A program made the translations under genes and the position numbers. 64,000 nt of DNA from Chrysoperla carnea (Eukaryota > Arthropoda > Insecta > Neuroptera > Chrysopidae), in assembly GCF_905475395.1 (NCBI RefSeq), contig NC_058337.1, positions 100,372,368 to 100,436,367 on the forward strand, written 5' to 3'. Under the pieces are notes generated by a model. It did not search any database. It was not told the origin of the DNA and saw only the letters and a program-made list of their open reading frames with translations. Below, piece by piece: positions 20,843 to 48,618 of this stretch; positions within the stretch are counted from its first letter, which is position 1, and the number at the start of each line of letters is the position of its first letter.

Positions 20843-23800
20843 CTATTTTTTTACTGCGAATTCGACATAATTATCATTCCCTCTCCGTATAATTGTATTA
20901 TCATTCCAAACACTTTTCCAAATATGTTTAATTAAATCGAATATCGACTCATCTACGATATTAATTTTTAAACATTTGATCGATTTTTGTATGGATTCAA
21001 TGTTGTTAATATCTAATGAAAGTCCAACACAAATATTCTTACAATTTTCTAAAATCACATTTTCCACACTTACTTTTGACGTAAGTATCATTTGTAATGA
21101 AAATCCAGTTAAATCATAATTATCTGATAAATTAATTGTATGTAATTTTGTTGAATTCTCTAATGTTTCAAATAATTCTCTTAATTCGAATTCACTAACA
21201 TGACATCGTGATAAATCAATGTATTCTAAATGAAATGGTGTACCTAATCGTAAAAATGCAATTAATTCGGTTGTTATATATGATGTAGCGGATAAATCTG
21301 CAACACCTGATAAATGAATTTCTTTCAATATACAAGGATTTAAACTATTTAAAAATACTAATAAATTTGTTTTATTTAAAATATTATCACTTAAATTGAT
21401 ATATTCAATATGACGTAAATTTAATAAATCATTTTCATTATTACGATGACGAAATATATCACATGTAAATTGACATGATGATAAATTTAATGATTTTAAT
21501 TGTATATGATTTAAAATGATTGATAAATATTTAATACTATTATCACCAATATTATTGTAACTGAAATTTAATTCACGCAAATTAATTGTATTATTTGTAA
21601 ATATTTCTGATATATAATTAATACTTTCCCATGATATTAGATTATTACTAATATCAAGAGTTTGTAAGCTCGTTAATGTTTGTAATACTTCACAAAATAT
21701 TTTAATTGTATCATCGGTAAATAAATTACCAGATATATTAATTTGTTCCAGTGTACGTTGATGTTTTAATGCTTTTAATGCAGGTACTATTTGATTATCG
21801 GATAGATTTACGTTCGATAAATCTAATATTAAAGTGGCTTGGCATGAATCCAAACATTTTTTTAAATGAAAATCCACCACTGTAACAAATAAAAAAAATG
21901 ATGTAAATGATTTACGTAAAAATATGTTATTTATATTCAAATAAAATCGAATATTTAAAATTTTTATTTTTATTTATATAAGTCAAAATAGATTTTTGTA
22001 TCTCAACACATTATACCAATTAACATATGAGAGTGAGATTGTCCACTTCAATGTAAAACGCAAATTACGTATTTTCATTTGAACAAGTAGATAGAAACGA
22101 AAAAATACACAAAAGCCGAGGTTTGAACCCAAATTATCTATATATCCGATCTAGGACGTAACCAACTCGATCACTCCTATTCTATGTGAGTGACTCAATC
22201 TATATGCATCCTGTCCGTGTCTTTATTATATTTGTATGTTTGCGTATACAGAACACACAAACGTTTCGTACTGCTATATAAGTGATACAATTTACATATT
22301 TCTTATTATAAAACTAAATTTTTTCATTTAATTACAGCCTCATCCTCATATGAAAATGTGTTGAGTTAGCAAAAGCTATTAAACTTATCATGTATGAGGG
22401 GCATAAAGTACACAAAAGTTTGAAATAAATGTAAAAATTTAGTTTCATAATAAAAATATGAAATCATGTTTTTTTAAAAAAGTAAAAAATAATTTACAAA
22501 AATACCGACTTCAATCAATAATTTTCCTGTCAGCAGCGCCGGCTCTACCCCCAAATCAAGGTAGAGCTTGATTGTCTTTCGGCGCCATTTTTTAAGTATC
22601 AGTATCCTGCTTTTGTACAAAAACAGCTAATACACAAAAAAAAAAACCAAATTTTCTGATTCTAGAATCATATTGACTTAAATTACTTTCTTAAAGCTTG
22701 TATTGGACGAAAATATCCCGATCCAAGTATTACACTATTTTCACGTACCATTCGTTAAATCGTTCATATTTAAAATTTTTGTTACCTGTTTTATAAATTT
22801 TACAGCCATCTAAGTATCTTTCCACGATCGATGGTAAATTCCATGATGTAATTGTTGTAAATAATTCATTGCACGTAATGATCATTTCCAATGGATCGTT
22901 ATTATCTAATATAGCTCTATCTTTGGTTTCTAATTGTAATGTAGGCTTTACAGCTTCTTTACTGAAAAATTATAAATTTTTAATTTAAAAATGAAACATT
23001 TCTTCACACAAGTCTAAAGTATAACTATCTTAGAAATTGTAACTACATATTTGACTTCAATTAAAAAAACCAATATAACCGGCGCTGTACTATATAATAT
23101 GCCTAGCGACGCGGTTGGGTAACGGCTAGCAAAAAATGATGAATAAGGAAATGATACTTTTGGAATATTTCCAAAAACCAGGCTGCCTTCTTAATGCTTC
23201 TCAATATTTAAAAAATTCGATTTTGCTGATAAAAAAAATTACTTTAACTTACTTATAGTAGCGTTTTGCAGCTTCTTCCGCTAACCAAGAAATAGTTAAG
23301 TGTGGAACATTGCGTCGTGGAATTGGAATTTTCCAAATTTTGTTCTCAATATGAATATCAATCGAAATAATATTAGAAACTAATTGAGTGGAAGACGATA
23401 ATGGAACAGTAGTTGAATCAGGTTGAGTCAGTCTTGATGATGTTGCATTGACCTCACCGAAATCGGATTCAATTGAAGCCGATCGAACTACTTCTGTACT
23501 ACTTCTTTTTCTACTAAATCCAGCACTTAGCAAAGTTGTTTGTGACTTTCGACGTAATATGTTACGATTTAAGTGTGAATTCGAATTATTTTCAATAATT
23601 TCATTTTGTTCATGAAAATCGTTTTCATATGATACAATCTGATCCTGAGATTCTATTTCCATATTTATATTACGTTTAATAGGTGTGATTCTCTTTTTGG
23701 ATTTAGCTGGTGATTTGCTCGTTCTTTTAGGTGTTCTGGAAGACGAAGGTGCATCAAGTTCGAAACTATTATTTATACGACGTCTTTTTGAAGATGGTTC

Positions 23801-26800
23801 ATTAGGCATATCGTTTTCAAGCCAATTATCATCATCTACATCACCTGGGTTTATATACGCAGTTTGTTTTGATGGAGGTGTTCGCTTATATCTCTGTGGC
23901 GACATTGTTGGTTTTCGACGTAAATTATTAATAGCCTCTCTATATTCTTGAGTGGCCGAATTCTGATGAAGTTCATTATTATCATCCTCATCATCGGAAT
24001 TTAATTTTGATACATTTGGTGATTGTGTTAAACGCGTTTCATAACGTTTCGAATAAGGAGACTTTGATGGTGTTTCATTCCGTTTTGAAAGTGGGGACTT
24101 TGTTGGTGTGTATAAATACTGTTCATTTCTAGACGTCGAAGGTGTTTCAAAGTTTTGATCATGAATTAAAGCCATGGTATTTTTCTCTAATTTACCAGCT
24201 TTCTTGAGAATTTTCGACATTCGATCTATGAGAGTATCCAAAAATATGTTTTGGCACTCATCATATTCTAAATAACTTCTACTTTTACATAGAATATCTA
24301 AAGGTGTTTGATTATGATCATTTTTAACTAAAGGTGAAGCACCCTGATCTAAAAGTAATTCGATCACTTCTAAACGACCATTTCCACATGCATCATGTAA
24401 TGGAGTTGTTCCTTCGCATTCAGTTCCACCACGATCATTTATATCTGCACCACTATCTATTAAAAGCTTGACAATATTCAAAAAGCCATGATTGCAAGCC
24501 TCATGAAGAGGCGTCCATCCACAATTATCACGAGTATTTACAGGATGACCTTGATTCAAAAGAAGTTCCACATTTTTTATATTACCTTTTATGCATGCAA
24601 CATGTAATGGAGTTTCTCCGTTTTTGTTTTTTCGAATCCGAAATTTATTTGATCGTCGACTGCGATTAACTATTTTTGAAGCATTTTCTTCTGCTTCACT
24701 ATCTTCCGATAAACCTATTGAGAAATCCAAACAAATATTTTATTGTAATTAAAAATATACTAAGTAATCAATTTTTGGGCCCTAATCCATTTAAATAGGC
24801 ATTAAAAAAAGAAAATAAAAAACATAACTCACTGTGAACTGATTCTAAAGTAAAGAGGATCTACACGATAACTTTGACAGCAAAACATTTAAATCGGAAT
24901 TGGATAAATTAATATTGAATTAAGGAATACGGAAGGTATAAGATTATTCATAAAGTAGGCTCTAGTTTGTATTCGGTTGTGACTTTTTATTTGAAAAAAT
25001 AGTATAAAAGATGTCATATTTTGATTAATTAATCAAAAACAAGGTTGTTCCGAGAATATTCTGGGGAAGCTCCGTCGCATGAAAAAGTGATTTTAATTAA
25101 TTTTGCTACAACTCAAATTGATTATAGCTTTATTGTTTTTGAATAAAAGTTTCCATAGAGCATATCTTATAGTCTTCAAAGTACTTTAAAATTGTCTCTT
25201 ATTTTCATAAGTTTTAATTCAATAAGTTTAATTAATTATTATTTTTCAATAATTAATTTACATGCAAACAATTGAAAATTAGTCAGAACATTTCCCTTTA
25301 TCGCTAAAATTATCCATTGGAAGCGGTGGCGCCGATCTGATTTTCCTTTCTATGAGATTAAGCATAGATTGAATACCCTAAGTATTTTTGTATAATTTAT
25401 GAAGAGTAATTAATAATCTATCATACCTGAGATATCACCTAACTGAATTGAATTTTCAATAACAGGATTTCCTTCAACCTCATCACTATCATTATCACTA
25501 CTTGCATCAACACCCAAAGCTTGTCGTTTTTGTAGTGTTACCTCAACTAGATCATTTTTTCCACTTTTGCGTTGTAAAATTAACAATTTCGTATAACATT
25601 TCTCTTCCAATTTAATTAAATTAGCATCGTGTGCAGTTTCAATTGCTTTATTAAAATACGGTTCAATTTTTTCATACGCAACTTTAGATAATTCTAATAC
25701 TTCTGTTATGTTTAAGTAGCTTTCAACTACTTCTTGTGGATTATTACAAGAAAGATTTAAATCTTTTTTAAAATATTCCAATGCCAAATCGTATTCTTTA
25801 TTGTCTTTATAAGTTTGTGCAAGGCTAATATATGCTGCTGATAAACCTTTGCCAGTTTCATTATTTAGTTGTGCATTTTCCAACATTTTCTTGTAGTATT
25901 CGATGGCTTTTGTATAAAGTTTTAATTCACAACAGGCGTCACCCATCGTTTCATACAATTTGTTTTTACGTCCATATTCATTATCAGCAATTCCGATTAG
26001 AGATTCTTCGGTATAATATAAAGAAGCAACTGAAATTAAGTGAAAAATGTAGAACATTGTTTTTAAAACTAAAGCACTTATCAGCAATTTGTCATAAATC
26101 TATATTAATAAATGAGGCATATACGTTTGTCCGAATTGTTTAGATAAATTTTTCTGGGAAAATGTAAGAAATATCACTATTCTATAACTAAATCTAAAAG
26201 TTTGCCCACAATTTCCATACCGATTGAGAACTTTTTTACCTCGTTTTGAACCGTTTAGATGTGTGATGTAGATGGTACATTATCAAATTATTAAATGAAA
26301 GGTTGAACTTTGTATTTCGATATATAGAAAATTTTAATATTGCTTAAACATATCTGTTTAATGATTTATAAAGAGCATATCTCGAGTTCAGGCCTTAATC
26401 AGACTATTACAGCGAGGCGAAGTTGCTTAAAAATCGTTAACTTTCTATAAATTTTTCAATAATCGGATTTTAAGAACACCTCAAAGCAATATTAAAGAAT
26501 TACACTGAAATCGGCATTTAAATTGAAGAATTATAATCGCCAGTTAGCGGGGTTTGCCTGATTTGAATACATATTTTTATTGATCTTTAAAAATGATACA
26601 TAAATATTGCCACCTGGGAGTCTAAATTGGAACTAATGAAAACGAGTTCACATTCCGTTTTGATAATGACTACAAATTATTATCGCCAGTTGGCAGGATT
26701 TCAAATTCCAGTTATCAAAACATGTATGGTAAATAATTTTAATTTTGAAGGGTAATATTTTATTTGTTTCAGGGTGTTGCGGTCTTTTTCGGATTTTTGT

Positions 26801-28145
26801 AATTTATTTATTTTTTTAATTTTAAGATTGTTTAATTTTAAGAGGTTTAATGCTACTGAAGAGGATTGCCAAAGCAATCGAAACCGGTCTAGCTAATTAA
26901 TAATAATTTTATAATCTAGCTAAATATTTTTACTGTGGGTCCTGAAGGGGATATATTTAAAAAAATGCATGTCTGACTTAATACATTGTTTTAGGAAATG
27001 ATGGTGGGCCCCTAAATGCAATTTATAAAATTTGTTAAACTATTCCTTTTATCTATGCCTCTATAAATCCTTCCACGTTCGCATCAGAAAACCAATGAGC
27101 TAAGGTTCAAAATTGTTTCTTGACGGACGCTGCCAGAGTTAATTAATGTTTGATGGATCTTTCTATAAAAACGGTGTCGAAACTATTTAACTTCCCTGAG
27201 TAGATGTATTGTACTATTAGATTTTGCAGATAAATAAATACCCCTTCTAAAATTTTTTTTGTTGGATAGGGTACTTTAGAGGCTACATTGTTGTACTACA
27301 ACTAAATTTGCAAATACTTACTGATTTTTAATGTTTTTTCGATAACTTTACGTTCATTTAAATTTGGATGCTTCAATTTAAACGCTTCAACTAAAATTTG
27401 TTTTGCTGATTTATAGTCACCAGTTGTTGCAAGTATTTCACCTTTTGTTAATAAAATTTGACATTGCTTAGCAATACGATCCGATGATAGTCTTGATGCC
27501 GCATCATATGCTTTATTTAAATATAGTAACGTATTTTGGAAATCATTTTTATGTGAATAGACTAACGCTAACGTATAGTAACTTTGTTGTAATGATTGTA
27601 TTAAATCGTTTTTGTTACACAGCGCTATTGCTTTTTCCAAATAATCAATTGCTTTTGTAAATTCACCTTTATATTCAAAAACATTCGCTAAATTTAACAA
27701 TAATCGTGCTCGCATATCAAGTTTATCAATTTTTGTTACAAGCGGTTCCTTCAATCTAATAAGAATACAAATTAAATTAAAATTCAAACAGCGATAGTAT
27801 TACAGAAATATTCTAAAAAAATTTGAGATGGGAAAAATTAAAATTACTCCGTTGTATGAATCAGAAAACTTTTTTTTTATAATGTAGGCACATTTGAGCG
27901 TGCATTTGCCCTTGAAGCCTACTTTTCGAGCGGATGTTCTATAACTAAACCCCAGCCTTTAGGAATCGCTTTAATTTAACCTCGTTGGCCCCTGTCCCGA
28001 ATCGGAAATCAATTATTACGTGGGTACTTATTACTTGGACTTTCCCATCATTCTTTGAGTATTGATTTTCATTTCGATTCATACAAGATGGCGATTGTGC
28101 AGGGAATTTGTGAACGTGACTTCCAGATGTCTTTTCTAGCAACGC

Positions 28146-28181
<36 letters not shown>

Positions 28182-29827
28182 CCGTTGATATGAACCGTCC
28201 AATGATCCCAAGATTTGAAAACAAACAAGACAAACAATAAGGGAACAAAAATGTAAAGGCAAGGTCACATTGAACACTAATTTAGCAATAATTTATTTTC
28301 GAATCTTTTAAGTATAAAATAATAAAGGAAACCTAAAGTAAATCATTTATTTTAAATTGTATAACTCCATTTACTGATCCTTATACATATGATCAGGGCC
28401 GTAACAAGGGTACATAGCGCTGGTAGTAAGTATTGAAAATTCGTATACAGATAGTATTTAACATAAGAATAAAGGCAAAATGGGGGAGAGCCGCCATAAT
28501 GGTGTCCTTTTTGCGTTAATGAGTCTGTACATTTAATTGATAAACTTTTTAAATTTATTCAAATGATAGAGTATCAAATTAAAGTATTGATTTCTCTCAA
28601 CGTTTCCGAGCAAAACTTATTTAAGGAACTCATTACTCTCCTAAATGATACGGGGGTAATTTGCAAAAGAAATGATTAACGTTCAAAATCGAAATTTTGT
28701 TGATAATAAATAAAGTAAATAATACAAACAAAATTGTATTAAAATTGTAGTCATTAATAATATATTCCCTGTTCATTAAAATGTATCAAATAGTATCATT
28801 TTGGAAATTTTGATAAGCCAAGTATGTAATCCTACTAAATTTGGGTCATACTTTTCAAATTTGTGATCAAAATTATTCCAGCTCTAATAGGTTTCAAAAA
28901 GGTGGAGTCCTGGTCAGGAAATTAAGCACATAAGTTAAAAACTGACATCGCAGCTGAAAAAAATGATCCAAAATTAGTGGGTTTCAAAAAAAATTCCAAT
29001 AAATCAAATTTGCCTGTATTATCAAAAAAATAGAATTTATTAACTTAATGACTTTATGTAAAATAATGAGCCTTTTACATGATTTTTACTGACTTTTTGG
29101 TCTATGTTTAAAAAATAAGTTTAATTTTGCGCCTCTATTTCCCTAGTTACGGACCTGCAGATGATGATATAAAAATTTTAAAAAAATTCTTACTCTTCAC
29201 AAATAACAACACTTTTCATATAAGCTTTTTGAGCTTCAGCTAATAAATTTTTATCAATGTTATCAACATCGGATGTAGCTCCACAAAAATATGTTCGACC
29301 TAGTGTGGCGTGAGCTCGTTGTCTTTCTAGCAAATCATCTTCTTTTCTTGCAATTCCTTAAATAAATTTGAATTTTTTTATTTGACTGTAAAGTGTAGCT
29401 CTCACAACGTTTTTTACTTACTTAAATAAATATTCTGATGTTCTAAAGCTTTATTTATATCACCAAGATATGAACAGTATATTTCACCTATCATTCTATG
29501 TACACGACCGTAATCCATTTCTTTTCCTAATGCTTTGTAAGCCAATAGAGCATCCTATAAAATAATAAAAAAACTTTTAATCAGTAAATCTGTGCTTATT
29601 ATCGTTTATTTAATTTTCTACCTCATAATCTTTGATTGCATCTTCATATTGACCTTCGGTTGTATTAATTTCCGCTAGTTCTAAACTAAGTGCTGCAATG
29701 CTATTTTGATTTCCTTCTTTGAACGCTTTTAGTTTTTTATTTTGCAGTTCTACAAAAACATTAATTAATTAATTTGCAATTAAATTTTTTTTTTTTTTCA
29801 ATTAAATTACTTACTATTTTTATCCAT
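20843..29827 (-). CDS. TONSL: Tonsoku-like protein TONSL, copy A
   Basis: Nine minus-strand exons give 1382 aa: 29827-29815, 29749-29622, 29554-29422, 29356-29194, 27755-27322, 26029-25427, 24714-23253, 22961-22786, 21879-20843. All splice sites are GT-AG and phases agree. Architecture matches the family: N-terminal TPRs (about 5-440), an acidic SSDNDSDEVEG segment, three ankyrin repeats (about 521-640), a long Ser/Lys/Arg-rich linker, a ubiquitin-like region around residue 950 (IHIENKIWKIPIPRR), and C-terminal leucine-rich repeats (about 1040-1382). In family terms it pairs with MMS22L, binds H4 unmethylated at K20 on new chromatin and supports Rad51 at stalled forks. The ankyrin surface keeps residues equivalent to human E530, D559, W563, E568 and N571 (here E525, D554, W558, E563, N566). 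It is the more conserved of two tandem copies. Confidence 0.92.
22085..22185 (-). repeat. tRNA-derived SINE-like sequence in intron 8 of copy A
   Basis: On the minus strand, TGATCGAGTTGGTTACG resembles a polymerase III A box. GGGTTCAAACCTCGG, about 35 nt on, resembles a B box. Together they give a degenerate tRNA-like head. The same sequence is in copy B intron 8 (36035-36105), so it was present before the duplication. It is not a functional tRNA as far as I can fold it. Confidence 0.55.
27857..28205. repeat. Insertion unique to intron 4 of TONSL copy A
   Basis: About 350 bp interrupts sequence that is continuous in copy B: CGTTGTATGAATC ... AAGATTTGAAAACA in A against CGTTGTACGAATCCCACAAGATTTG in B near 41822-41850. 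It contains a T run of about 29 bases from 28149. It could be a retroposon on the minus strand, but no family was recognised. An ORF spanning the T run is not credible. Confidence 0.55.
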
Positions 29828-30254
29828 TTTTGTTTTGATTATAAAAAGTATCTTGCTTTATTTTATTAAATAAAAAGTTGTTATCGCAATGCAGTTTCCG
29901 GGAAATGAATGGATTTTAGATAAAAATTCTTTTTTTTTTTAATTTTACAGTATATATTTTTAAATTGACACTGAAGAAGTGAATAGGAATGTAGGCGAAT
30001 GTTTTCTCTATTATTATTAAATATATTTATAAGTTTATAAATAATTTTTGTATTATTATTTACAAATTTGACATACGACTTTAACTTCTTGAAGTCACAT
30101 TGTATGGATAGTACCAATACATTGTTTAAATCAGGTTTAAAAGCTTAAGTCAGTTTAGATTGTTTTTATTTAGATAGATGGAGATAAATTACACAGATGG
30201 AATACACCATAGACTTATACTACAAAAAACAGATGAAATATGTGTCCTCCTGAG
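29828..30254. promoter_or_regulatory. 5' flank of TONSL copy A
   Basis: Upstream of the copy A start codon. Part of it (29908-30254) is repeated at 48272-48618, where it is detached from copy B. It probably contains the promoter and 5' UTR of TONSL. No defined element could be picked out by eye. Confidence 0.45.
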
Positions 30255-32630: not shown

Positions 32631-33460
32631 TGTATATGAAATATACATAGTATATTAAGTTTAGTCCCAAGTTTGTAACGCTGAAAAATATTGATGCTAC
32701 GAAAAAAATTTTGGTATAATCGTCTATCCGTCTGTCATCACGATTACTCAAAAACGAAAAGAGATATCAAGCTGAAATTTTTATAGTGTGCTTAAGACGT
32801 AAAAAGTGAGGTCGAGTTCGTAAATGAGAAACATAGGTCAATTGGGTCTTGGGTCCGTATGACCCATCTTGTAAACCGTTAGAGATAGAACAAATGTTTA
32901 AATGTAAAAAATGTTTCTTATAAAAAAATAAACAACTTTTGTTTGAAACATTTTCTTGTAAACATCACTGTTTACCCACGAGGGCGCTAATTAGGTGAAA
33001 ATTTTGTGGTTGGTATTAATATTGGAATATCAGTTACGTGTGTGTGTGTGGCTATTTAAGAATGGAAATCTTTCTTTATTTACGTGACGTCAAAAAAGGT
33101 CGAGTTCGTAAATGAGAAACATAGGTCAATTGGGTCTTGGGTCCGTATGACCCATCTTGTAAACCGTTAGAGATAGAACAAATGTTTAAATGTAAAAAAT
33201 GTTTCTTATAAAAAAATAAACAACTTTTGTTTGAAACATTTTCTTGTAAACATCACTGTTTACCCACGAGGGCGCTAATTAGGTGAAAATTTTGTGGTTG
33301 GTATTAATATTGGAATATCAGTTATGTGTGTGTGTGTGTGGCTATTTAAGAATGGAAATCTTTCTTTATTTACGTGACGTCAAAAAATTGCGTCATCAAA
33401 ACTGTCTATACATGGTATTTCAACAATTAACTCAGTCAATTGTTTGTTTTCATTTGTTTT
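32631..33460 (+). repeat. R1 repeat with internal 288-bp tandem duplication
   Basis: Starts TTTTATACCATGTATATG and ends CAATTGTTTGTTTTCATT. The block 32811-33098 is repeated almost exactly at 33099-33387: both start GTCGAGTTCGTAAATGAGA and end near TTTACGTGACGTCAAAAAA. A GT microsatellite lies in each unit. Confidence 0.85.
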
Positions 33461-34594: not shown

Positions 34595-34749
34595 CTTTCG
34601 GTTTGGATTTTAACGCTAAGATGTCATCGCCACGAGTATTGATCAGCTGGGTGACCTAATAAAAAGATTATTTTTTTAATACCGCGACGCTGAGATCTTA
34701 AAAATATACTCGGATAGTATACGGTTTTGGAACTTTCCTAAAAAGGAAG

Positions 34750-37700
34750 TTAAATCAAATTACTATATTTTTTTACTGCAAATTCGACATAATTATCATT
34801 CCGTCTCCATATAATTGTATTATCATTCCAAACACTTTTCCAAATATGTTTAATTAAATCGAATATCGACTCATCTACGATATTAATTTTTAAACATTTG
34901 ATCGATTTTTGTATGGATTCAATGTTGTTAATATCTAATGAAAGTCCAACACAAATATTCTTACAATTTTCTAAAATCACATTTTCCACACTTACTTTTG
35001 ACGTAAGTATCATTTGTAATGAAAATCCAGTTAAATCATAATTATCTGATAAATTAATTGTATGTAATTTTGTTGAATTCTCTAATGTTTCAAATAATTC
35101 TCTTAATTCGAATTCACTAACATGACATCGTGATAAATCAATGTATTCTAAATGAGATGGTGTACCTAATCGTAAAAATGCAATTAATTCGGTTGTTATA
35201 TATGATGTAGCGGATAAATCTGAAACACCTGATAAATGAATTTCTTTCAATATACAAGGATTTAAACTATTTAAAAATACTAATAAATTTGTTTTATTTA
35301 AAATATTATCACTTAAATTGATATATTCAATATGACGTAAATTTAATAAATCATTTTCATTATTTCGATGACGAAATATATCACATGTAAATTGACATGA
35401 TGATAAATTTAATGATTTTAATTGTATATGATTTAAAATGATTGATAAATATTTAATACTATTATCACCAATATTATTGTAACTGAAATTTAATTCACGC
35501 AAATTAATTGTATTATTTGTAAATATTTCTGATATATAATTAATACTTTCCCATGATATTAGATTGTTACTAATATCAAGAGTTTGTAAGCTCGTTAATG
35601 TTTGTAATACTTCACAAAATATTTTAATTGTATCATCGGTAAATAAATTACCAGATATATTAATTTGTTCCAGTGTACGTTGATGTTTTAATGCTTTTAA
35701 TACAGGTACTATTTGATTATCGGATAGATTTACGTTCGATAAATCTAATATTAAAGTGGCTTGGCATGAATCCAAACATTTTTTTAAATGAAAATCCACC
35801 ACTGTAACAAATAAAAAAAATGATGTAAATGATTTACGTAAAAATATGTTATTTATATTCAAATAAAATCGAATATTTAAAATTTTTATTTTTATTTTAT
35901 ATAAGTCAAAATAGATTTTTGTATCTCAACACATTATACCACTTAACATATGAGGGTGAGATTGTCCACTTCAATGTAAAACGCAAATTAAGTATTTTCA
36001 TTTGAACATGTAGATAGAAACGAAAAAAATACACAGAAACCGAGGCTTGAACTCATTTCATCTAGATATCCGATCTAGGACGTAACCAACTCCATCACTT
36101 CTATTCTAACGTTTCGCACTGCTATATAAGTGATACAATTTACATATTTCTTATTATAAAACTAAATTTTTTCATTTAATTACAGCCTCACCCTCATATG
36201 AAAATGTGTTGAGTTAGCAAAAGCTATTAAACTTATCATGTATGAGGGGCATAAAGTACTCAAAAGTTTGAAATAAATGTAAAAATTTAGTTTCATAATA
36301 AAAATATGAAATCATGTTTTTTAAAAATGATCGATCGTCTTTCGGTGCCATTTTTTAAGTATCAGTATCCTGCTTTTGTACAAAAACAGCTAATACACAA
36401 AAAAAAACAAATTTTCTGATTCTAGAATCATATTGACTTAAATTACTTTCTTAAAGCTTGTACTGGACGAAAATATCCCGATCCATATATTATACAATTT
36501 TCAAGTACCATTCGTTAAATCGTTCATATTTAAAATTTTTGTTACCTGTTTTATAAATTTTACAGCCATCTAAGTATCTTTCCACGATCGATGGTAAATT
36601 CCATGATGTAATTGTTGTAAATAATTCATTGCACGTAATGATCATTTCCAATGGATCATTATTATCTAATATAGCTCTATCTTTGGTTTCTAATTGTAAT
36701 GTAGGCTTTACAGCTTCTTTACTGAAAAATTATAACTTTTTAATTTAAACTTTTTAATTTAAAAAAGAAACACATTTCTTCACATAAGTTTTAAGTATAA
36801 CTACCTTAGAAATTATAAATACATATTTTACTTCAAAAAAAAAAATATAACCGGCACGGTACCCTATAAGTTTAAGCAGGATAGCAGAAAAAACGAAAAT
36901 ATGAATAAGGAAATGACATTTTTGGAATTTTTCCAAAAAAATAAATCCAGGCTGCCTTCTTAATGCTTCTCAATATTAAAAAAAATCGATTTTGCTGATA
37001 AAAAATACTTAAACTTACTTATAGTAGCGTTTTGCAGCTTCTTCCGCTAACCAAGAAATAGTTAAGTGTGGAACATTGCGTCGTGGAATTGGAATTTTCC
37101 AAATTTTGTTCTCAATATGAATATCAATCGAAATAATATTAGAAACTAATTGAGTGCAAGAAGATAATGGAACTGTAGTTGAATCAGCTTGAGTCAGTCT
37201 TGATGATGTTGCATTGACCTCACCGAAATCGGATTCAATGGAAGCAGACCGAACTACTTCTGAACTACTTCTTTCTCTACTAAATCCAGCACTTAGAAAA
37301 GTTGTTTGTGACTTTCGACGTAATATGTTACGATTTAAGTGTGAATTCGAATTATTTTCAATAATTTCATTTTGTTCATGAAAATCGTTTTCATATGATA
37401 CAATCTGATCCTGAAATTCTATTTCCATATTTATATTACGTTTAATCGATGTGATTCTCTTTTTGGATTTAGCTGGTGATTTGCTCGTTCTTTTAGGTGT
37501 TTTGGAAGACGAAGGTGCATCAAGTTCGAAACTATTATTTATACGACGTCTTTTTGAAGATGGTTCATTAGGCATATCGTTTTCAAGCCAATTATCATCA
37601 TCTACATCACCTGGATTTATATACGCAGTTTGTAAATTATTAATAGCCTCTCTATTTTCTTGAGTGGCCGAATTCTGATGAAGTTCATTATTATCATCCT

Positions 37701-40700
37701 CATCATCGGAATTTAATTTTGATACATTTGGTGATTGTGTTAAACGCGTTTCATAACGTTTCGAATAAGGAGACTTTGATGGTGTTTCATTCCGTTTTGA
37801 AAGTGAGGACTTTGTGGGTGGGTATAAATACTGTTCATTTCTAGACGTCGAAGGTGTTTCAAAGTTTTGATCATGAATTAAAGCCATGGTATTTTTCTCT
37901 AATTTACCAGCTTTCTCAAGAATTTTCGACATTCGATCTATGAGAGTATCCAAAAATATTTTTTTGGACTCTTCATATTTTAAATTTCTTCTACTTTTAC
38001 ATAGAGTATCTAAAGGTGTTTCATTATGATCATTTTTAACTAAAGGTGAAGCACCCCGATTTAAAAGTAATTCGACCACTTCTAGATAACCATATCTACA
38101 TGCATCATGTAATGGAGTAAATCCTTCGCATTCAGTTCCACCACGATCATTTATATCTGCACCACTATCTATTAAAAGCTTGACAATATTCAAAAAGCCA
38201 TAAATGCAAGCCTCATGAAGAGGCGTCCATCCACTATGATCACGAATATTTACAGGATGGCCTTGATTCAAAAGAAGTTCCACATTTTTTATATTACCTT
38301 TTCTGCATGCAATATGTAATGTAGTTTCTCCTTTATCGTTTTTTCGAATCCGAAAATTATTTGATCGTCGACTGCGATTAACTATTTTTGAAGTATTTTC
38401 TTCTGCTTCACTATCTTCCGATAAACCTATTGAGAAATTCAAACAAATATTTTATTGTAATTAAAAATATACTAAGTAATCAATTTTTGGGCCCTAATAC
38501 GTTTAAATAGGCATAAAATAAAAGAAAATAAAAAACATAACTCCACTAAACAAATATTTTGGACTCTTTGAAATATTCAAACACACCTGTGACTGATTCT
38601 AAAGTAAAACAAGTGAAAACAAACAATTGATTGAGTTAATTGTTGAAATACCATGCATAGTCAGTGTTGATTTCTTTATCACATTACACATACAAACATG
38701 TGACACATACATAACTGATAATCAAGTATAGTTCATATTATAAAATTTCCGCCTAGTTAGCGCCCTCGTGGGTAAACAGTGATGTTTACGAAAAAATGTT
38801 TCAAACAAAAGTTGTTTAATTTTTGATAAGGAATATATTTAAACTTTTGTTCTATCTCTAACGGTTTACAAGATGGGAACTACGGACCCAAGACCCAATT
38901 GACCTATGATGCTCATTTACGAACTTGACCTCACTTTTTACGTCCTGAGTACTCTGTAAAAATTTCAGCTCGATATCTTTTTTCGTTTTTGAGTTATCGT
39001 GTCCACAGACGGACGGACGGACAACCGAAAATGGACTAATTAGGTGATTTAGTGAACACCTATGACAAAATTTTTTTCCTAGCATCATTATTTTTAAGCG
39101 TTACAAACTTGGGACTAAACTTAATATACTATGTATATTTTATATATACATGGTATAATGAAGAGGATTATTACACGATATTTTGATTAATTAATCAAAA
39201 ACATGGTTGTTCCGAGAATATTCTGGGGGAGCTCCGTCGCATGAAAAAGGGATTTTAATTAATTTTGCTACAACTCAAATTGTTTATAGCTTTATTGTTT
39301 TTGAATAAAAGTTTCCATAGAGCATATCTTATAGTCAAGTCTTCAAAGTATTTTAGAATTGTCTCACAATTTTTAATTCAATAAGTTTAATTAATTATTA
39401 TTTTTCAATAATTAATAAACATGTAAACAATTGAAAATTAGTCAGAACAGTTCCCTTTATCGCTAAAACTATCCATTGGAAGCGGTGGCGCCGATCTGAT
39501 TTTCCTTTCTATATGAGATTACGCACAGATTGAATACCCTAAGTATTTATGTATAATTTATGAAAAGTAATTAATAATCTATCATACCTGAGATATCACC
39601 TAACTGAATTGAATTTTCAATAACAGGATTTCCTTCAACCTCATCACTATCATTATCACTACTTGCATCAACACCCAAAGCTTGTCGTTTTTGTAGTGTT
39701 ACCTCAACTAGATCATTTTTTCCACTTTTTCGTTGTAAAATTAACAATTTCGTATAACATTTCTCTTCCAATTTAATTAAATTAGCATCGTGTGCAGTTT
39801 CAATTGCTTTATTAAAATACGGTTCAATTTTTTCATACGCAACTTTAGATAATTCTAATACTTCTGTTATGTTTAAGTAGCTTTCAACTACTTCTTGTGG
39901 ATTGTTACAAGATAGATTGAAATCTTTTTCAAAATATTCCAATGCCAAATCGTATTCTTTATTGTCTTTATAAGTTTGTGCAAGGCTAATATATGCTGCT
40001 GATAAACCTTTGCCAGTTTCATTATTTAGTTGTGCATTTTCCAACATTTCCTTGTAGTATTCGATGGCTTTTGTATAAAGTTTTAATTCACAACAGGCGT
40101 CACCCATCGTTTCATACAATTTGTTTTTACGTCCATATTCATTATCAGCAATTCCGATTCCGAGAGATTTTTCGGTATAATATAAAGAAGCAACTGAAAT
40201 TAAGTGAAAAATGCAGAACATTGCTTTTAAAACTAAAGCACTTATCAGCAATTTGTCATAAATCTATATTAATAAATGAGGCATGTACGTTTGTCCGAAT
40301 TGTTTAGATATATTTTTCTGGAAAAATCGAACCTCTCTATCTACTTAAATAGATGGGAAACGAAATTTTTTTTAATTTAAAAAATGTGAGAAATATCCCT
40401 TTTCTATAACTAAATCTACTAGTTGGCCCATATCTTCCATACCGATTGGGTAAGCAGTGGTAATACTTAGAATTTTTTCGATAATTTTTTTGCCTCGTTT
40501 TGAACCGTTTAGATGTGTGATGTAGATGGTACATTATCAAATTATTAAATGAAAGGTTGAACTTTGTATTTCGATATGTAGAAAATTTGAATATTGCTTA
40601 AACATATCCGTTTAATGATTTATAAAGAGCATATCTCGAGTTCAGGCCTTAATCAGACTATTACAGCGAAGCGAAGTTGCTTAAAAACCGTTAACTTTCT

Positions 40701-43700
40701 AAAAGTTTTTCAATAATCGGATTTTAAGAACACAAAAAACAATATTAAAGAATTACACTGAAATCGGCATTTAAATTGGTACGATTTATTATGGCAAGTT
40801 GGCGGGGATTGTCTGATTTGAATATTTTTATTGGCCTTTAAAAATGATACATACAAATATTGCTACCTGGTAGTCTAAATTGGAACTAATGAAAACGAGT
40901 TCCCTTTCCGTTTTAATAATGAGTTGGCAGGATTGCAAATTCCAGTTATTATAACATGTCTGACTTGATACATTGTTTTAGGAAATGATACGGGGCCCCT
41001 AAATGCAATTTATAAAATTTGTTAACCTATTCCTTTTATTTATGCTCTATAAACCCTTCCACGTTCGTATCAGAAAACCAATGAGCTAAGGTTCAAAATT
41101 GTTTCTTGACGGACGCTGCCAGAGTTAATGAATATTTGATGAATCTTTCTATAAAAACGGTGTCGAAACTATTTAATTTCCCTGAGTAGATGTATTGTAC
41201 AATTAGATTATGCGGATAAATAAATATCCCTTCTAAAATTTTTGTTATTGGATAGGATACTTTAGAGACTAAATTTGCAAATACTTACTGATTTTTAATT
41301 TTTTTTCGATTACTTTACGTTCATTTAAATTTGGATGCTTCAATTTAAACGCTTCAACTAAAATTTGTTTTGCTGATTTATATTTACCAGTTGTTGCAAG
41401 TATTTCACCTTTTGTTAATAAAATTTGACATTGCTTAGCAATACGATCCGATGATAGTCTTGATGCCGCATCATATGCTTTATTTAAATATAGTAACGTA
41501 TTTTGGAAATCATTTTTATGTGAATAGACTAACGCTAACGTATAGTAACTTTGTTGTAATGATTGTATTAAATCGTTTTTGTCACACAGCGCTATTGCTT
41601 TTTCCAAATAATCAACTGCTTTTGTAAATTCATCTTTATATTCAAAAACATTCGCTAAATTTAACAATAATCGTGCTTGCATATCAAGTTTCTCAATTTT
41701 TGTTACAAGCGGTTCCTTCAACCTAATCAGAATACAAATTAATTAAATGAAAATTCAAACAGCGATAGTATTACAGAAATATTCCAAAAAAATTTGAGAT
41801 GCAAAAAATTAAATTTATCCCGTTGTACGAATCCCACAAGATTTGAAAACAAGACAAACAATGTGAACGTAAGGGCCAAAAAATTAAAGGCATGGGCACA
41901 TTGAACACAGTGTGAATAGTCACTGCGATAATATAAAATAAAAATAGCTAAAAATAAGTAAACTATTTAGCAATAATTTATTTTCGAATCTTTTAAGTAT
42001 AAAATAATAAAGGAAGCCTAAATTAATTCATTTATATTAAATTGTATAACTCCATTAACTGATCCTTATACATATGATCAGGGCCGTAACGAGGGTACAT
42101 AGCGCTGGTGGTAAGTATTTAGGTTGCGCGTTATATATATATCGCAATTGGCTCTAACGATTTTGATGAAAATTCGTATACTGATAGTATTTAACATGAG
42201 AGTAGAGGCAAAATGGCGGGGAGAGTCGCCATAATCGTGTCATTTTGCGTTCAAGAGTCTGTACATTTAATTGATAAACTTTTTAAATTTATTCAAATGA
42301 TAGAATATCAAATTAAAGTATTGATTTCTCTCATCGTTTCCGAGCAAAACATATTTAAGGAACTCATTACTCTCCTAAATGATACGGGGGTAATTTGCAA
42401 AAGAAATGATTAACCTTCAAAATCGAAATTTTGTTGATAATAAATAAAGTAAATAATACAAACAAAATTGTATTAAAATTTTAGTCATTATTAATATATT
42501 CCCTGTTCATTAAAATGTATCAAAAAGTACCATTTTGGAAATTTTGATAAGCCAAGTATGTAATCCTACTAAATTTGGATCATATTTTTCAAATTTGCGA
42601 TCAAAATTATTCTAACTCTAATAGGTTTCAAGAAGATGGAAGAAACCTGGTCACGGAATTATGCACAAAAGTGATAGCTAGCGCAAAACTGACATTGCAG
42701 CTGAAAAGAATGACCCAAAATTAGTGGGTTTCAAAAAAAAATCCAATCAGATCATCATCAGAATCAAAAAAATTTAGTTTTGCTCTATCACATCCAAATT
42801 TTATCCAATTTTGATAAACCGAGTATGTAATTCTACTAAATTTGGGTCATACTTTTCAAATGTGTGATTAAAATTATTCTAGCTCTAATAAATTGCAAGA
42901 AGGTGGAGTCTTGGTCACGGAATTATGCACATAAGTGATAGCTATCGAAAAACTAACATCGCCGCTGAAAATAATGACCCAAAATTAGTGGGTTTCAAAA
43001 AAAGATTACAGTCAGATCGGATCAAATTTGCATGTTTTATCAAAAAAACAAATTTTTTAACTTTATGACGTCATCAGAATAAAAATCACATCCAAATTTT
43101 ATCCAATTTTGAAATCCAAAAAGGTGGAGCCCTGGTCAGGGAATTCAGCACATAAGTGAAAGCTAGCGAAAAACTGACATCGCAGCTAATGATCAAATTT
43201 GCCTGTATTAAAAAAAAAAATAGAATTTTTTAACTTAATGACTTTATGTAAAATGAGCGCCTTGTACATGATTCTTTACTAACTTTTTGTTCTACGATTA
43301 AAAAATAAGTTTAGTTTTGCGCCTCCATTACTGTTGTTCCTTTGCCACGCCCTAGTTACGGAGCTGCATATGATGATATGAAATTTAAAAAAAATTCTTA
43401 CTTGTCGCAAATAACAAAACTATTCATATAAGCTTTTTGAGCTTCAACTAATAAATTTTTATTAATGTTATCAACATCGGATATAGCTCCACAAAAATAT
43501 GTTCGACCTAGTGTGGCGTGAGCTCGTTGTCTTTCTAGCAAATCTTCTTTTTTTGCAATTCCTTAAATAAATTTGAATTTTTTTATTTGACTGTAAAGTG
43601 TAGCACTCACAACGTTTTTTATTTACTTAAATAAATATTCTGATGTTCTAAAGCTTTATTTATATCACCAAGATATGAACAGTATATTTCACCTATCATT

Positions 43701-44023
43701 CTATGTACACGACCGTAATCCATTTCTTTTCCTAATGCTTTGTAAGCCAATAGAGCATCCTATAAAATAATAAAAAAAACTTTTAATCAGTAAATCTGTG
43801 CTTATTATCGTTTATTTAATTTTCTACCTCATAATCTTTGATTGCATCTTCATATTGACCTTCGGTTGTATTAATTTCCGCTAGTTCTAAACTAAGTGCT
43901 GCAATGCTATTTTGATTTCCTTCTTTTAACGCTTTATTTTTTTTATTTTTCAGTTCTATAAAACATCAATTAATTAATTTTCAATTAAATTTCTTATACA
44001 AATTACTTACTATTTTTATCCAT
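34750..44023 (-). CDS. TONSL: Tonsoku-like protein TONSL, copy B
   Basis: Nine minus-strand exons give 1369 aa: 44023-44011, 43955-43828, 43759-43627, 43561-43402, 41722-41289, 40193-39588, 38426-37019, 36721-36546, 35801-34750. The frame is open throughout, so this is not an obvious pseudogene. The TPR, ankyrin, linker and LRR layout equals copy A. Differences are one codon lost in exon 4, one gained in exon 6, 18 residues lost from the linker, and five extra residues (YSNLI) at the C-terminus. The LRR exon has about five substitutions. The ankyrin region and the stretch after it have about 28 in 155 residues. The residue equivalent to human N571 is Ile566 (ATT at 38203-38205) instead of Asn. 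The exon 3 donor is GTAAAT rather than the GTAAGT of copy A. Copy B may be specialised, weakened in H4 reading, or under reduced constraint. Confidence 0.88.
36035..36105 (-). repeat. tRNA-derived SINE-like sequence in intron 8 of copy B
   Basis: Counterpart of 22085-22185, with A-box-like TGATGGAGTTGGTTACG and B-box-like GAGTTCAAGCCTCGG on the minus strand. It is more degenerate than in copy A. Confidence 0.5.
38606..39159 (-). repeat. R1 repeat inserted in intron 6 of TONSL copy B
   Basis: Complete R1 copy in reverse orientation, from AACAAGTGAAAACAAACAAT to TATACATGGTATAAT. It is absent from the equivalent intron of copy A (24715-25426), so it arrived after the duplication or was lost from A. 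It contains the GTAAACAGTGATGTTTAC palindrome-like core. Confidence 0.85.
42600..43200. repeat. Local tandem amplification in intron 4 of TONSL copy B
   Basis: A unit containing AAACTGACATTGCAGCTGAA and ATGACCCAAAATTAGTGGG occurs near 42690, 42955 and 43165 (the last partial). Copy A has it once near 28940-28990. It accounts for much of the intron length difference. Confidence 0.7.
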
Positions 44024-44159
44024 TTTTGTTTTTATTATAAAAAGTTTCTTGCTTTATTTTATTAAATAAGAAGTTGTTATCGCAATGCAATTTCCGGGAA
44101 ACTAATGGATAAAAACAAATTACAATTAGATAAACAAATGCTTTTTAAAACAATATGTT

Positions 44160-44740
44160 AACAAGTGAAAAAAAACAATTGACTGAGTTAATTGTTGAAA
44201 TATCATGTATAGACAGTGTTGATGAAGCGAATCGTTTGTTTTTTGATGTCACGTAAATAAAAAAAGATATCCGCTTTTAAATAGCTACACACACACTGAT
44301 ATTCCCATATTCATACATACTATAAAATTTGCACCTAATAAGCGCCCTCGTGGGTAAACAGTGATGTTAACAAAAAAATGTTTCAACCAAAAGTTGTTTA
44401 TTTTTTTATAAAGAACATTTTTTAAATTTAAACTTTTGTTCTATCTCTAACGGTTTACAAGATGAGTCCTGCGGACCCAAGACCCAATTGACCCATATTG
44501 CTCATTTACGAACTCGACCTCTTTTTACGCCCTGAGTACGCTATAAAAATTTCATCGTGATATCTCTTTTCGTTTTTGAGTTATCGTGTTGACAGACGAA
44601 CAGACAACCGGAAATGGACTAATTAGGTGATTCTATGAACACATACCAAAATTTTATCGATAGCATCAACATTTGTAGGCGTTACAAACTTTGGACTAAA
44701 CTTAATATACTATGCATATTTCATATATACATGGTATAAA
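44160..44740 (-). repeat. R1 repeat inserted in the left arm of the Penelope-like element
   Basis: Full R1 copy in reverse orientation, from ACAAGTGAAAAAAAACAATT to ATATACATGGTATAAA. On removing it, the flanking sequence (CAATATGTTAA | ACACAATACATCACAG) lines up with the right arm (complement of 47401-47435). Confidence 0.8.
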
Positions 44741-44878
44741 ACACAATACATCACAGATAAAATCAATAAAGTAAATTATATGATTTTGGTAAACCTGTCA
44801 ACAATAAACGAAATAAATAAAATATAAATATAGAATATAAATAATGCAATGGAGCATTGTATATCACAGATAAGTTTA

Positions 44879-45400
44879 TCACAATGTTTCAAAAAGGGGA
44901 GAATACGTTAAATCAATTTGGTCATTCAAGAGTTCTTTTGGACCATTTTTATGTTTGTGAATCTCTAACGATTTTAACAGAGTCATTTTTTTCCCTTTTT
45001 GTGTGGTATGGAGTATATCAAATTTAAAACTAGGTTTGTGGTCAGATTCTCTTAAATGGTTCGCAAAAGTTGAATCCGTTTTTCGATTTTTATAAGATCT
45101 TATGTGTTTTCCTTTGCGAATTTTGAATGACCTCCCAGTCTGTTCGATATATACTCCCAAACATTCTTTTCATGTGATCAATTGTAAATGCCCGATTTTT
45201 CCATTGTATCCATCTTCTGTTTATTATTAAAGACTATATTTCCTAACGATGTAGCGGATCGGAATGCTATTTGTATTTGATTTTCACGGAGTATATGAGC
45301 AATTTTTTCTGAAATTTCACCGTAATAGGTGAATATCTCATATTGTTGTGGTATTTTCTCCGTTGGAAAAATTGTCTCGAGCGCTATTTTTAGTTCTCTT
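44879..45400 (-). pseudogene. Penelope-like GIY-YIG endonuclease domain, broken
   Basis: The minus strand reads a connector with EIFTYYGEISEKIAHILREN and SGIYN. Then, after a stop or frame change around 45180, it reads VYIEQTGRSFKIRKGKHIRS and FANHLRESDH. The Y-I-x-Q-T-G-R-S-F block and the following A-x-H-L...H are typical of the GIY-YIG nuclease of Penelope-like elements. The domain normally nicks target DNA for reverse transcription. The frame change means this copy is inactive. Confidence 0.75.
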
Positions 45401-45408
45401 TATACCAT

Positions 45409-45590
45409 GCATATATGTAATATGCAAGGTATACTAAGTTTAGTCAAAAGTTTGTAACGCCTAAAAATCTTGACGCTACCAACAAAATTTTGGTATAGGT
45501 GTTCATAAAATCACCTAATTAATTCATTTCCAGCTGTCCGTCCGTCTGTGATATCTCAAAAACAAAATAAGATATCAAGCTGAAATTTAG
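45409..45590 (+). repeat. R1 repeat fragment inside the Penelope-like element
   Basis: Starts TATACCATGCATATATGTAA and stops after AAGATATCAAGCTGAAATTT, where a second R1 copy begins. It is the 5' third of R1 only. Confidence 0.75.
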
Positions 45591-45638
45591 TCATCTGGCA
45601 TCATCCTTATTAAAATAAAACAAAAATTTTGAATTATT

Positions 45639-46141
45639 TTTATACCATGTATATAAAATATACATAGTATAATAAGTTTAGTCCCAAGTTTGTAACGCTG
45701 AAAAATATTGATGCTACGAAAAAAATTTTGATATAATCGTCTGTCCGTCTGTCATCACGATTACTCAAAAACGAAAAGAGATATCAAACTGAAATTTTTA
45801 TAGTGTGCTTAAGACGTAAAAATTGAGGTCGAGTTCGTAAATGAGAAACATAGGTCAATTGGGTCTTGGGTCCGTAGGATCCATCTTGTAAACCGTTAGA
45901 GATAGAACAAAAGTTTAAATATAAAAAATGTTCTTTATAAAAAAATTAACAACTTTTGTTTGAAACATTTTTTTGTAAACATCACTGTTTACCCGTGAGG
46001 GCGCAAATTAGGCGTAAATTGTATAAAATGTATTATATAAATTGTATATGTATACAACAGTAATGTGATAAAGTAATCAACACTATTTATGAATGGTATT
46101 TCAACAATTAACTCAGTCAATTGTTTGTTTTCACTTGTTTT
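45639..46141 (+). repeat. R1 repeat inside the Penelope-like element
   Basis: Near full-length, TTATACCATGTATATAAAAT to TTGTTTTCACTTGTTT. It shares a 5' leader (CATCTGGCATCATCC..AAACAAAAATTTTGAATT) with the copy at 32631, which suggests that R1 or a carrier extends upstream of TATACCATG. Confidence 0.8.
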
Positions 46142-46149
46142 GCAATGAT

Positions 46150-46936
46150 TTTGTTGATCATTGTGACAGTGAAACCATTCTGCGCAGCAATGTATTTTAT
46201 TGTATTACGTTTCCTTTCCAATTTTTCTAGTGATAGTGGAAGGATAACGCACGATGGATCATTGCATTGTATGCAGCCATTTTGTGACTAAATGGGTGTA
46301 CAGAGTCGATTGGAATCGTCACGTCTGTTGTTGAAGGTTTTCGATAGACGTCGAATACTAATTTATTTTCTGATCTTGTAATTTTCAGATCTAGGAAATT
46401 TATTTCTTTGCATTTTTCTTTTCCCAAAGTAAATTGCACTTTGTTGTTCTTGGTATTACAAAACCGTAGGAAATTTTCCAACTGTCTATCTGAGCCTTCA
46501 AAACATATGACATCATCAACATATCTATACCAAAATTTAATATGCTGCCGCGCTTCATTGTGTTTAGAATATTTTTTTCGAAGTTGTCCATATAAATTTC
46601 GGCCAATATGGGACTTAAAGGACTTCCCATTGCTAGGCCATTTGTTTGCCCATAAAACTTATTGTTAAATATAAAATAATTCTGCTTGATGATGGTACGT
46701 AAGGTGGTTAGTATTTCATCTTTTTTAACAGGATTTGTATTTTTTTCATCGAGTAGGTCGGATAGTATGTGAATGCTTTCTTTGGGTGAAATGTTACCGA
46801 ACATATTTGTAATATCCAGTGAGGCTAATTTGTAGCTACTCTGTATTTGAAAATTATCGAGTTTTTTTATTAAGTCCAATGTGTTCTTTAGAGCATGTTC
46901 GTTAAAAATGCCCAGTTCTTCTTTTATCCATTGCAT
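46150..46936 (-). pseudogene. Penelope-like reverse transcriptase, frameshifted
   Basis: The minus strand shows reverse transcriptase motifs: LDITNMFGNISPKES (motif A), NGLAMGSPLSPILAEIYM (motif B), then in another frame YVDDVICF (motif C) and INFLDLKITR. At least two frame changes are seen, one between motifs B and C and one after MAAYNAMIHRAL. The 5' part of the ORF is absent. It is therefore a dead copy. The G-S-P-L-S-P block followed by a GIY-YIG nuclease identifies a Penelope-like rather than a non-LTR element. Confidence 0.8.
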
Positions 46937-47159
46937 TATTTATATTTATATTTTATTTATTTTGTTTATTGTTGACAGGTTTACCAAAATCATATAATTT
47001 ATGTAAATATTTTGTTTCCTATCATTATTTTATGCCATTTTAAATTTTTGCTATATGATTTTATCAATAATTATTTTATCTGTGTTGTGGTAGTATTTAT
47101 TATTAACAGTACAGTATACAGAATTATAGAATAGAAATTTGAAAGAGATTTGTAAGAAC

Positions 47160-47335
47160 GACAATAACAACAATAATAGCAATAATAATAATAAGAATAA
47201 CAATAACAACAATAATAAAAGTGATGCCAGTAATATCAATAATAACAACAATAACAATAATACCAATATTAACAATAACAATCATAAAAATAATAACAAT
47301 AGTGACAATAATAACAATAATAATAAAAGACTGTA
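47160..47335. repeat. AAT/AAC trinucleotide microsatellite
   Basis: An impure run of AAT, AAC and AAG triplets of about 175 bp lies in the right part of the Penelope-like element. It produces long poly-Asn, poly-Leu and poly-Ile/Val reading frames that are not genes. Confidence 0.85.
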
Positions 47336-47468
47336 ACAGCGGAAGCGAATTTAACACTGATAACTAATCTGATAACTATCACTGATAATGCAGATAAACT
47401 ATCTGTGTTGTATTGTGTTTTTAACTTATTGTAAAAGCATTTGTTTATCTAATCGTAATATTTGTTTT

Positions 47469-48045
47469 TATACCATGCATATACGTAATATGCAAGGTAT
47501 ACTAAGTTTAGTCCCAAGTTTGTAACGCTTAAAAAAGTTTAGTCCCAAGTTTGTAACGCTTAAAAATATTGAAGCTACGAACAAAATTTTGGTATAGGTG
47601 TTCATAAAATCACCTAATTAGTCCATTTCTGGCTGTCCGTCCGTCCGTCCGTCTGTGGTCACGATAACTCAAAAACGAAAAAGATATCAAGCTGAAATTT
47701 TTACAGCGTACTCAGGACGTAAAAAGTGAGGTCGAGTTCGTAAATGTGCAACATAGGTCAATTGGGTCTTGACCTATGGGTCCGTAGGACCCATCTTGTA
47801 AACCGTTAGAGATAGAACAAAAGTTTAAATGTAAAATATGTTCCTTATCAAAAAATAAATAACTTTTTTTTGAAACATTTTTTCGTAAACATCACTGTTT
47901 ACCCGTGAGGGCGCAAATTAGGCGTAAATTGTATAGTATGTATTATATAAATCGTATATGTATGTGCAATGTGATAGAGTAATCAACACTATTTATGCAT
48001 GGTATTTCAACAATTAACTCAGTCAACTGTTTGTTTTCACTTGTT
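47469..48045 (+). repeat. R1 repeat, full-length
   Basis: TATACCATGCATATACGTAA to TGTTTGTTTTCACTTGTT. It carries a short internal duplication of AGTTTAGTCCCAAGTTTGT near 47505-47555. It abuts the right end of the Penelope-like element. Confidence 0.85.
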
Positions 48046-48271
48046 AACTTTAAAAAGCATTTAAAGTAATACTCGAATATAAATTTTATTGTTTGAAAAT
48101 GTCTTAAATCAAGACGAAACAATTGTCACAATAGATTTTTATTTAAAAAAAAATCTTAAAATTTTGTAGTGGATTACTGCAAAGTATAATAAAATTTTTT
48201 TAAAATTATATTACGTGTATATTTTAATTATTAAAATGCAATTCCACAGAGTAAAGCTCAACACAATCGAT

Positions 48272-48618
48272 AATGGATTTTAGATAAAAGTTCTTTTTTT
48301 TTTTTAATTTTACAGTATATATTTTTAAATTGACACTGAAGAAGTGAATAGGAATGTAGGCGAATGTTTTCTCTATTATTATTAAATATATTTATAAGTT
48401 TATAAATAATTTTTGTAGTATTATTTACAAATTTGACATAAGACTTTAACTTCTTGAAGTCACATTGTATGGATAGTACCAATACATTGTTTAAATCAGG
48501 TTTAAAAGCTCAAGTCAGTTTAGATTGTTTTTATTTAAATAGATGGAGAACATTTACACAGATGGATACACCATAGACTTATACTACAAAAAACAGATGA
48601 AATAAGTGTCTTCCTGAG
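48272..48618. repeat. Detached 5' flank of TONSL unit B
   Basis: Matches 29908-30254 upstream of copy A (for example AATTGACACTGAAGAAGTGA and CACATTGTATGGATAGTACC), but is about 4.2 kb from the copy B start codon because repeats lie between. If it carried the TONSL promoter, copy B now depends on other sequence or on a long 5' UTR intron. Confidence 0.85.

Follow-up and report, generated by a model that had tools for sequence, protein, structure and literature searches.

The analysed window, a stretch of 64,000 nt from Chrysoperla carnea, carries two complete neighbouring copies of TONSL that constitute a tandem duplication, and the differences between them are concentrated on the face of the ankyrin domain (ARD) that normally recognises new histone H4. 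On balance, the comparison of the two copies favours a history in which tandem duplication was followed by divergence of the histone-reading faces under positive selection, with copy B having probably lost or retargeted H4 reading.

Copies A and B are arranged head to tail on the minus strand of contig C1 in the searched genome (559 Mb, 337 contigs). Both are composed of nine exons separated by GT-AG introns, with the reading frame open over every splice joint, and the rebuilt models contain a single terminal stop apiece and no internal stop.

20843..29827, minus strand: TONSL copy A, 1382 aa
29827-29815, 29749-29622, 29554-29422, 29356-29194, 27755-27322, 26029-25427, 24714-23253, 22961-22786, 21879-20843, minus strand: exons 1 to 9 of copy A
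20843..21879, minus strand: LRR exon (exon 9) of copy A
34750..44023, minus strand: TONSL copy B, 1369 aa
44023-44011, 43955-43828, 43759-43627, 43561-43402, 41722-41289, 40193-39588, 38426-37019, 36721-36546, 35801-34750, minus strand: exons 1 to 9 of copy B
34750..35801, minus strand: LRR exon (exon 9) of copy B, conserved

Pfam matches in copy B place the TPR in exons 5 and 6, the ankyrin repeats in exon 7 and the LRR in exon 9, and ankyrin matches were likewise obtained in exon 7 of copy A, the sole exon of that copy scanned. Both copies show the TPR-ankyrin-LRR order of TONSL, the TPR and LRR of copy A being assigned via near identity to B. The duplicated homology extends over 20772-30254 for A and 34694-48618 for B, with aligned pieces about 91-98% alike. 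Copy B bears five additional residues, YSNLI, at its C-terminus (34750-34767), and an 18-residue segment, RRKPTMSPQRYKRTPPSK, located 3' of the ankyrin block in exon 7 of A (23253-24714), is missing from exon 7 of B (37019-38426).

The pair is surrounded by a dispersed repeat family of 88-94% identity (17282-17840, 30688-30831, 52218-52758 and 58748-59196), and the spacer contains tandem copies of about 290 bp (32796-33097 and 33086-33387) that are 97.7% alike and related to other repeats of the window. The left neighbour (13850-14710) gave a weak protein-kinase match, and the right neighbour (53731-57374), which we take to be TRABID-like, gave a weak RanBP zinc-finger match together with an OTU protease match.

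The divergence between the copies is distributed very unevenly. The LRR exon differs at exactly 5 of 345 aligned residues, the figure that an earlier note on this DNA had estimated, and the ankyrin block, comprising residues 515-670 of copy A, differs at 28 of 156, in agreement with the approximate 28 of 155 given there for the ankyrin region and the segment after it. Elsewhere, 0 of 59 residues differ in exon 8, 11 of 290 in the remainder of exon 7 after the block, and 22 of 490 in exons 1-6. The coordinates 37950-38380, to which the earlier note had assigned the divergence, correspond to copy B residues of about 508-651, where 27 residues differ.

24179..24646, minus strand: diverged ankyrin block of copy A, residues 515-670, from the A/B comparison
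37891..38358, minus strand: diverged ankyrin block of copy B, residues 515-670, 28 of 156 residues differing from copy A

The 35 base changes within the block were estimated as 31.3 replacement and 3.7 synonymous changes, bearing out the impression that most nucleotide changes there alter the amino acid. Scanning of replacement density with spans of 60, 110 and 155 codons and 2000 shuffles located the densest span within residues 493-647 at all three sizes, and none of the 2000 shuffles equalled it (P 0.0005, the floor of the test). Synonymous changes showed no clustering at the same three span sizes (P 0.15, 0.25 and 0.26). A separate observation concerns TPR exons 1-5 (44023-41289 and 29827-27322), in which replacement divergence is at or above the synonymous level, with dN/dS of 2.2 for exons 1-2, 2.1 for exons 3-4 and 1.3 for exon 5, ratios that rest on 0.5 to 2 synonymous changes each.

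The local burst had been ascribed to diversifying selection, to gene conversion homogenising the rest, or to both, and an equally raised synonymous divergence with dN/dS below 1 had been named as the outcome pointing to an older or mutation-driven difference. The reverse was obtained, since the block shows no excess of synonymous divergence (3.6% versus 2.5% outside, P 0.51), omega exceeds 1 and the excess lies on ligand-facing positions, all of which favours diversifying selection. As a neutral yardstick, intron divergence between A and B amounts to 5.1%, with 154 differences in 2994 usable sites; columns close to gaps were excluded from this count, as were ungapped runs that were short or of low identity, which left no usable site in intron 1. 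Replacement divergence in the block reaches 8.6%, exceeding that of the introns (Fisher P 0.014) as well as that of local silent sites in intron 6 and exon 7 (26.7/745, P 0.0007). In an MG94 codon model that assigns introns and codons a common divergence time, the block omega is 2.01 (2dlnL 10.65, one-sided P 0.0006), rising to 3.56 on coding sites alone (2dlnL 19.96, P 4e-6); the corresponding omega values with introns are 0.49 for the TPR exons (0.87 on coding sites only), 0.36 for the remainder of exon 7 and 0.12 for the C-terminus.

Simpler tests gave a softer signal. NG86 comparison of replacement and synonymous divergence yielded P 0.14 for the block, which holds few synonymous sites, and P 0.31 for the ARD core, the replacement-to-synonymous ratio inside versus outside gave P 0.028 for the block and P 0.17 for the ARD core, and replacement divergence of the ARD core against introns gave a Fisher P of 0.06. 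For this gene pair, the replacement rate above neutral in the ankyrin block is statistically demonstrated and points to positive selection, being weaker or non-significant in the NG86 and simple Fisher tests. It was also observed that gene-wide synonymous divergence (2.6%) is about half of the intron divergence of 5.1% (P 0.0009; 20843-29827 and 34750-44023), which codon constraint or exon-biased conversion could explain.

The changes fall on a particular surface of the repeats. According to a passage of a designed-ankyrin paper (PMC3308923), positions 2, 3, 5, 10, 13 and 14 of an ankyrin repeat face outward on one surface. With this position set, A and B differ at 11 of 18 ligand-face positions versus 6 of 81 others in ANK1-3 (P 2e-6), and at 13 of 24 versus 13 of 108 in ANK1-4 (P 2e-5), in a test that is not blind, the set being externally sourced but picked after the differences were visible. 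Replacement divergence of the ANK1-3 face amounts to 13.3/45.4, or 29%, compared with the 5.1% of the introns (P 4e-7), and the non-face positions of ANK1-3 show a rate close to neutral (P 0.49). If codons evolved neutrally, at least 11 of the 18 residues would be changed with a probability of 4e-7 for the divergence seen in introns, rising to 2e-5 for 8% and 0.02 for 20%. When the five pocket residues are removed from the face, 10 of the 13 positions left differ. The classic designed-ankyrin face set has position 26 in place of position 10, and its use gave 11 of 18 for ANK1-3 and, with ANK4 included, 12 of 24 versus 14 of 108 (P 2e-4).

The H4K20me0 pocket of human TONSL consists of E530, D559, W563, E568, N571 and D604, a numbering that agrees with the N571 of published work. 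It was mapped onto both copies in two ways, by the SLF1 residue list with its spacing and by alignment to the human TONSL ARD, the letters of which are identical to PDB 5ja4_D. In the SLF1-H4 structure, as described in the corresponding paper (PMC11551741), E808, D838, W842, E847, N850 and D881 form the cavity for H18 and K20me0, and these residues are stated to be conserved in TONSL and BARD1. Copy A possesses all six equivalents (E525, D554, W558, E563, N566 and D599), and copy B possesses five of the six, with Ile instead of Asn at 566, so that the full set including the N571 equivalent is absent from it. This loss had gone unmentioned in the earlier note.

24491..24493, minus strand: AAT (Asn) at codon 566 of copy A, which corresponds to N571 of human TONSL by codon list and human ARD alignment
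38203..38205, minus strand: ATT (Ile) at codon 566 of copy B, which corresponds to N571 of human TONSL by codon list and human ARD alignment

A preprint that cites earlier work (PMC12478395) states that human TONSL carrying N571A neither binds H4K20me0 nor associates with chromatin. The same substitution serves as the TONSL histone-binding mutant (PMC8221569, citing earlier work), and N571 is termed the key H4-binding residue in a review (PMC12066720). At the sites of ANK1 and ANK3 equivalent to N571 (position 13), copy A carries Ile and Gly and copy B carries Arg at both, where human TONSL has Ile and Asn and human BARD1 has Ile and Lys; position 13 of ANK1 and ANK2 in human BARD1 is Ile and Asn, as in copy A. 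As the ligand of this face is a basic tail, the two extra Arg residues would probably lower its affinity for H4. Because the key Asn is lost and Arg occupies this position in repeats 1 and 3, recognition of H4K20me0 by copy B is probably poor or absent. Five of the six pocket residues are intact, so residual binding of H4 is possible.

An altered ligand was considered and rejected as the cause. The best 150 of 811 H4 candidates were scored, each at 99% identity, a diverged variant among the remainder being possible, and the one match that was translated is unaltered around K20 and departs from the query only at residue 1, where Ser is replaced by Thr. The H4 ligand in this genome thus looks standard.

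Comparison with the human protein does not favour either copy as the one that changed. ARD identity to human TONSL is equal (62/113 for A and 62/113 for B), and of six differing sites at which one copy agrees with human, three match A and three match B; hence the change of the ankyrin face does not appear to be clearly confined to B. No ortholog for polarising the changes was found in a viral collection queried with a 98-residue stretch encoded by the 3' part of exon 7 together with exon 8. A third copy was likewise sought as a polariser and discarded, the DNA search of the genome with exon 7 returning two places only, both on one 140 Mb contig.

Several features suggest that both copies are working genes. 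Over residues 979-1382, 5 replacement changes were observed, in comparison with 24.7 expected at the intron rate (P 2e-6) or 12.6 at the synonymous rate (P 0.014) if one copy were neutral. This small replacement divergence demonstrates, at the level of sequence comparison, purifying selection on the C-terminal third of both TONSL copies. The ARDs were modelled from alignments containing just the two copies, and the predicted folds have pLDDT of 88.4 for copy B and 82.8 for copy A, the C-terminal helices of the latter being weaker, and the search of solved structures, carried out with the copy B model, returned human TONSL (5ja4_D) first and BARD1 second. For the partner MMS22L, one match to PF14911 above the cut-off was found, on the same contig C1.

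In the favoured history a tandem duplication gave two TONSL genes, both kept by purifying selection on the C-terminal third, and the ankyrin ligand face diverged between them faster than neutral sequence, under positive selection. Copy A retains the full H4K20me0-binding set of human TONSL, BARD1 and SLF1, and copy B, which lacks the key Asn and has Arg at the matching sites of repeats 1 and 3, is probably incapable of standard H4K20me0 reading. The TPR of human TONSL engages H3.1 and its LRR engages MMS22L, as reported in the preprint mentioned above (PMC12478395), and by analogy copy B may still load through both. The outcome would be a histone-reading TONSL separated from an uncoupled or retargeted one.

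A more specific form of this outcome is possible, albeit rather unlikely: selection may have retuned the copy B ARD to a different target, be it another tail or tail state of the histones or a protein of repair or of mobile elements, and so have provided this lineage with a second TONSL-MMS22L complex whose loading would not depend on post-replicative H4K20me0.

Relaxed constraint is an improbable substitute for positive selection as the source of the changes. It would have copy B, severed from its upstream flank by an insertion, drifting and collecting changes in the ankyrin block, and the flank of copy B is indeed interrupted.

44111..48271, strand unassigned: inserted segment, about 4.16 kb long, interrupting the 5' flank of copy B at 87 bp before the start codon; the flank homology picks up again on its far side
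48279..48618, minus strand: former upstream flank of copy B, now displaced; it matches 29915-30254 of copy A with 10 differences among 323 usable sites

The insertion, by which copy B has been separated from its ancestral upstream flank, is bounded by the 7-base repeat AATGGAT (44104-44110 and 48272-48278), present once in A, and contains a reverse-transcriptase fragment at 46400-46939, presumably Penelope-like. The TPR omega values given above, 0.49 with introns as yardstick and 0.87 on coding sites, also accord with a loosened constraint. Drift, however, cannot pass the neutral rate, and the block does so, above all on its ligand face; moreover, every exon is open and the C-terminal third is conserved in both copies.

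Less probable still is an older divergence, in which the block would keep its original age and the remainder would have been homogenised by gene conversion. Silent-site profile and run tests gave weak local support: a silent-identical run at 22019-21645 of copy A covers 181 silent sites (P 0.03 as longest run), the lowest 400-site silent span has P 0.012, and the introns differ in divergence among themselves (P 0.023). Against it stand the synonymous divergence of the block, which is not raised, the adjoining intron 6, which at 3.5% lies under the intron mean of 5.1%, and the block changes, which are overwhelmingly replacements. Gene conversion as the main cause was therefore rejected, only replacements being raised in the block, and with introns diverged by 5.1% it is not needed in that role. 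What stands of the conversion branch of the earlier note is a local event, possible near 22.0-21.6 kb of copy A, and a degree of homogenisation may have occurred around intron 8 and the beginning of the LRR exon.

It is very doubtful that the two copies are haplotypes joined by the assembler instead of two genes. The identity of about 91-98% in aligned pieces is compatible with this reading, as very diverse species can reach such values between alleles. Apart from short stretches that are repeated at other places in the window as well, however, the left flank of A has nothing in common with the spacer preceding B, which argues against haplotypes joined by mistake. In addition, the flanking kinase and OTU-gene ORFs lie outside the duplicated segments, the 64,000-nt window is free of N runs, and exon 7 occurs at two places of a single contig.

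Least credible of all is the overwriting of one block from another ankyrin gene, or a clustered mutation event, since, although ankyrin matches are plentiful in the genome, the best other one by E-value among the best 150 of 331 candidates scored is 39% identical, leaving no close donor among these, the exon 7 search found no third place, and the changes are scattered, mostly single bases per codon and almost none synonymous.

Through its reading of H4K20me0, TONSL couples homologous recombination to chromatin that has just been replicated. A naturally occurring TONSL altered at the residue of the standard histone-binding mutant and kept beside an intact copy would make it possible to ask which roles the protein has without H4 reading, and the favoured positive selection would place a replication-repair histone reader among the chromatin proteins under such selection. 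Positive selection on the TONSL reader is unexpected because its ligand, the H4 tail, hardly changes. Literature searches, judged by titles and the openings of abstracts, turned up no report of an insect TONSL duplication or of selection on the TONSL ankyrin domain. The relevant passages of a lizard study, where a substitution is said to alter affinity for TONSL, and of a fish study, where TONSL is among the expressed repair genes, hold nothing on either subject.

Among known systems, the human TONSL ARD (5ja4_D) has in common with both copies the four-repeat fold, the identity of 62/113, the long finger 2 loop GG..CEG and the equivalents of E530, D559, W563, E568 and D604. It differs from copy B in the residue at N571, which is Ile here, and in position 13 of repeats 1 and 3, which is Arg here, and the present case further differs from human TONSL in comprising two paralogs in one genome. 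The H4K20me0 pocket is common to BARD1 and SLF1 as well, the SLF1 list sharing the D-W-E-N spacing. BARD1 is a distinct protein with other domains and partners and without the TPR-ARD-LRR arrangement. The same holds for SLF1 (PMC11551741).

The human N571A laboratory mutant is altered at the same residue as copy B. In contrast to that mutant, copy B carries Ile rather than Ala, is natural, resides beside an intact sister copy, and has ten further changes on the same face of repeats 1-3. HP1 proteins are chromodomain heterochromatin proteins and not replication-repair ankyrin readers. The Drosophila HP1 family is nevertheless comparable as a gene family of chromatin proteins in which signatures of selection are reported to be unequal among the members (PMC3380853).
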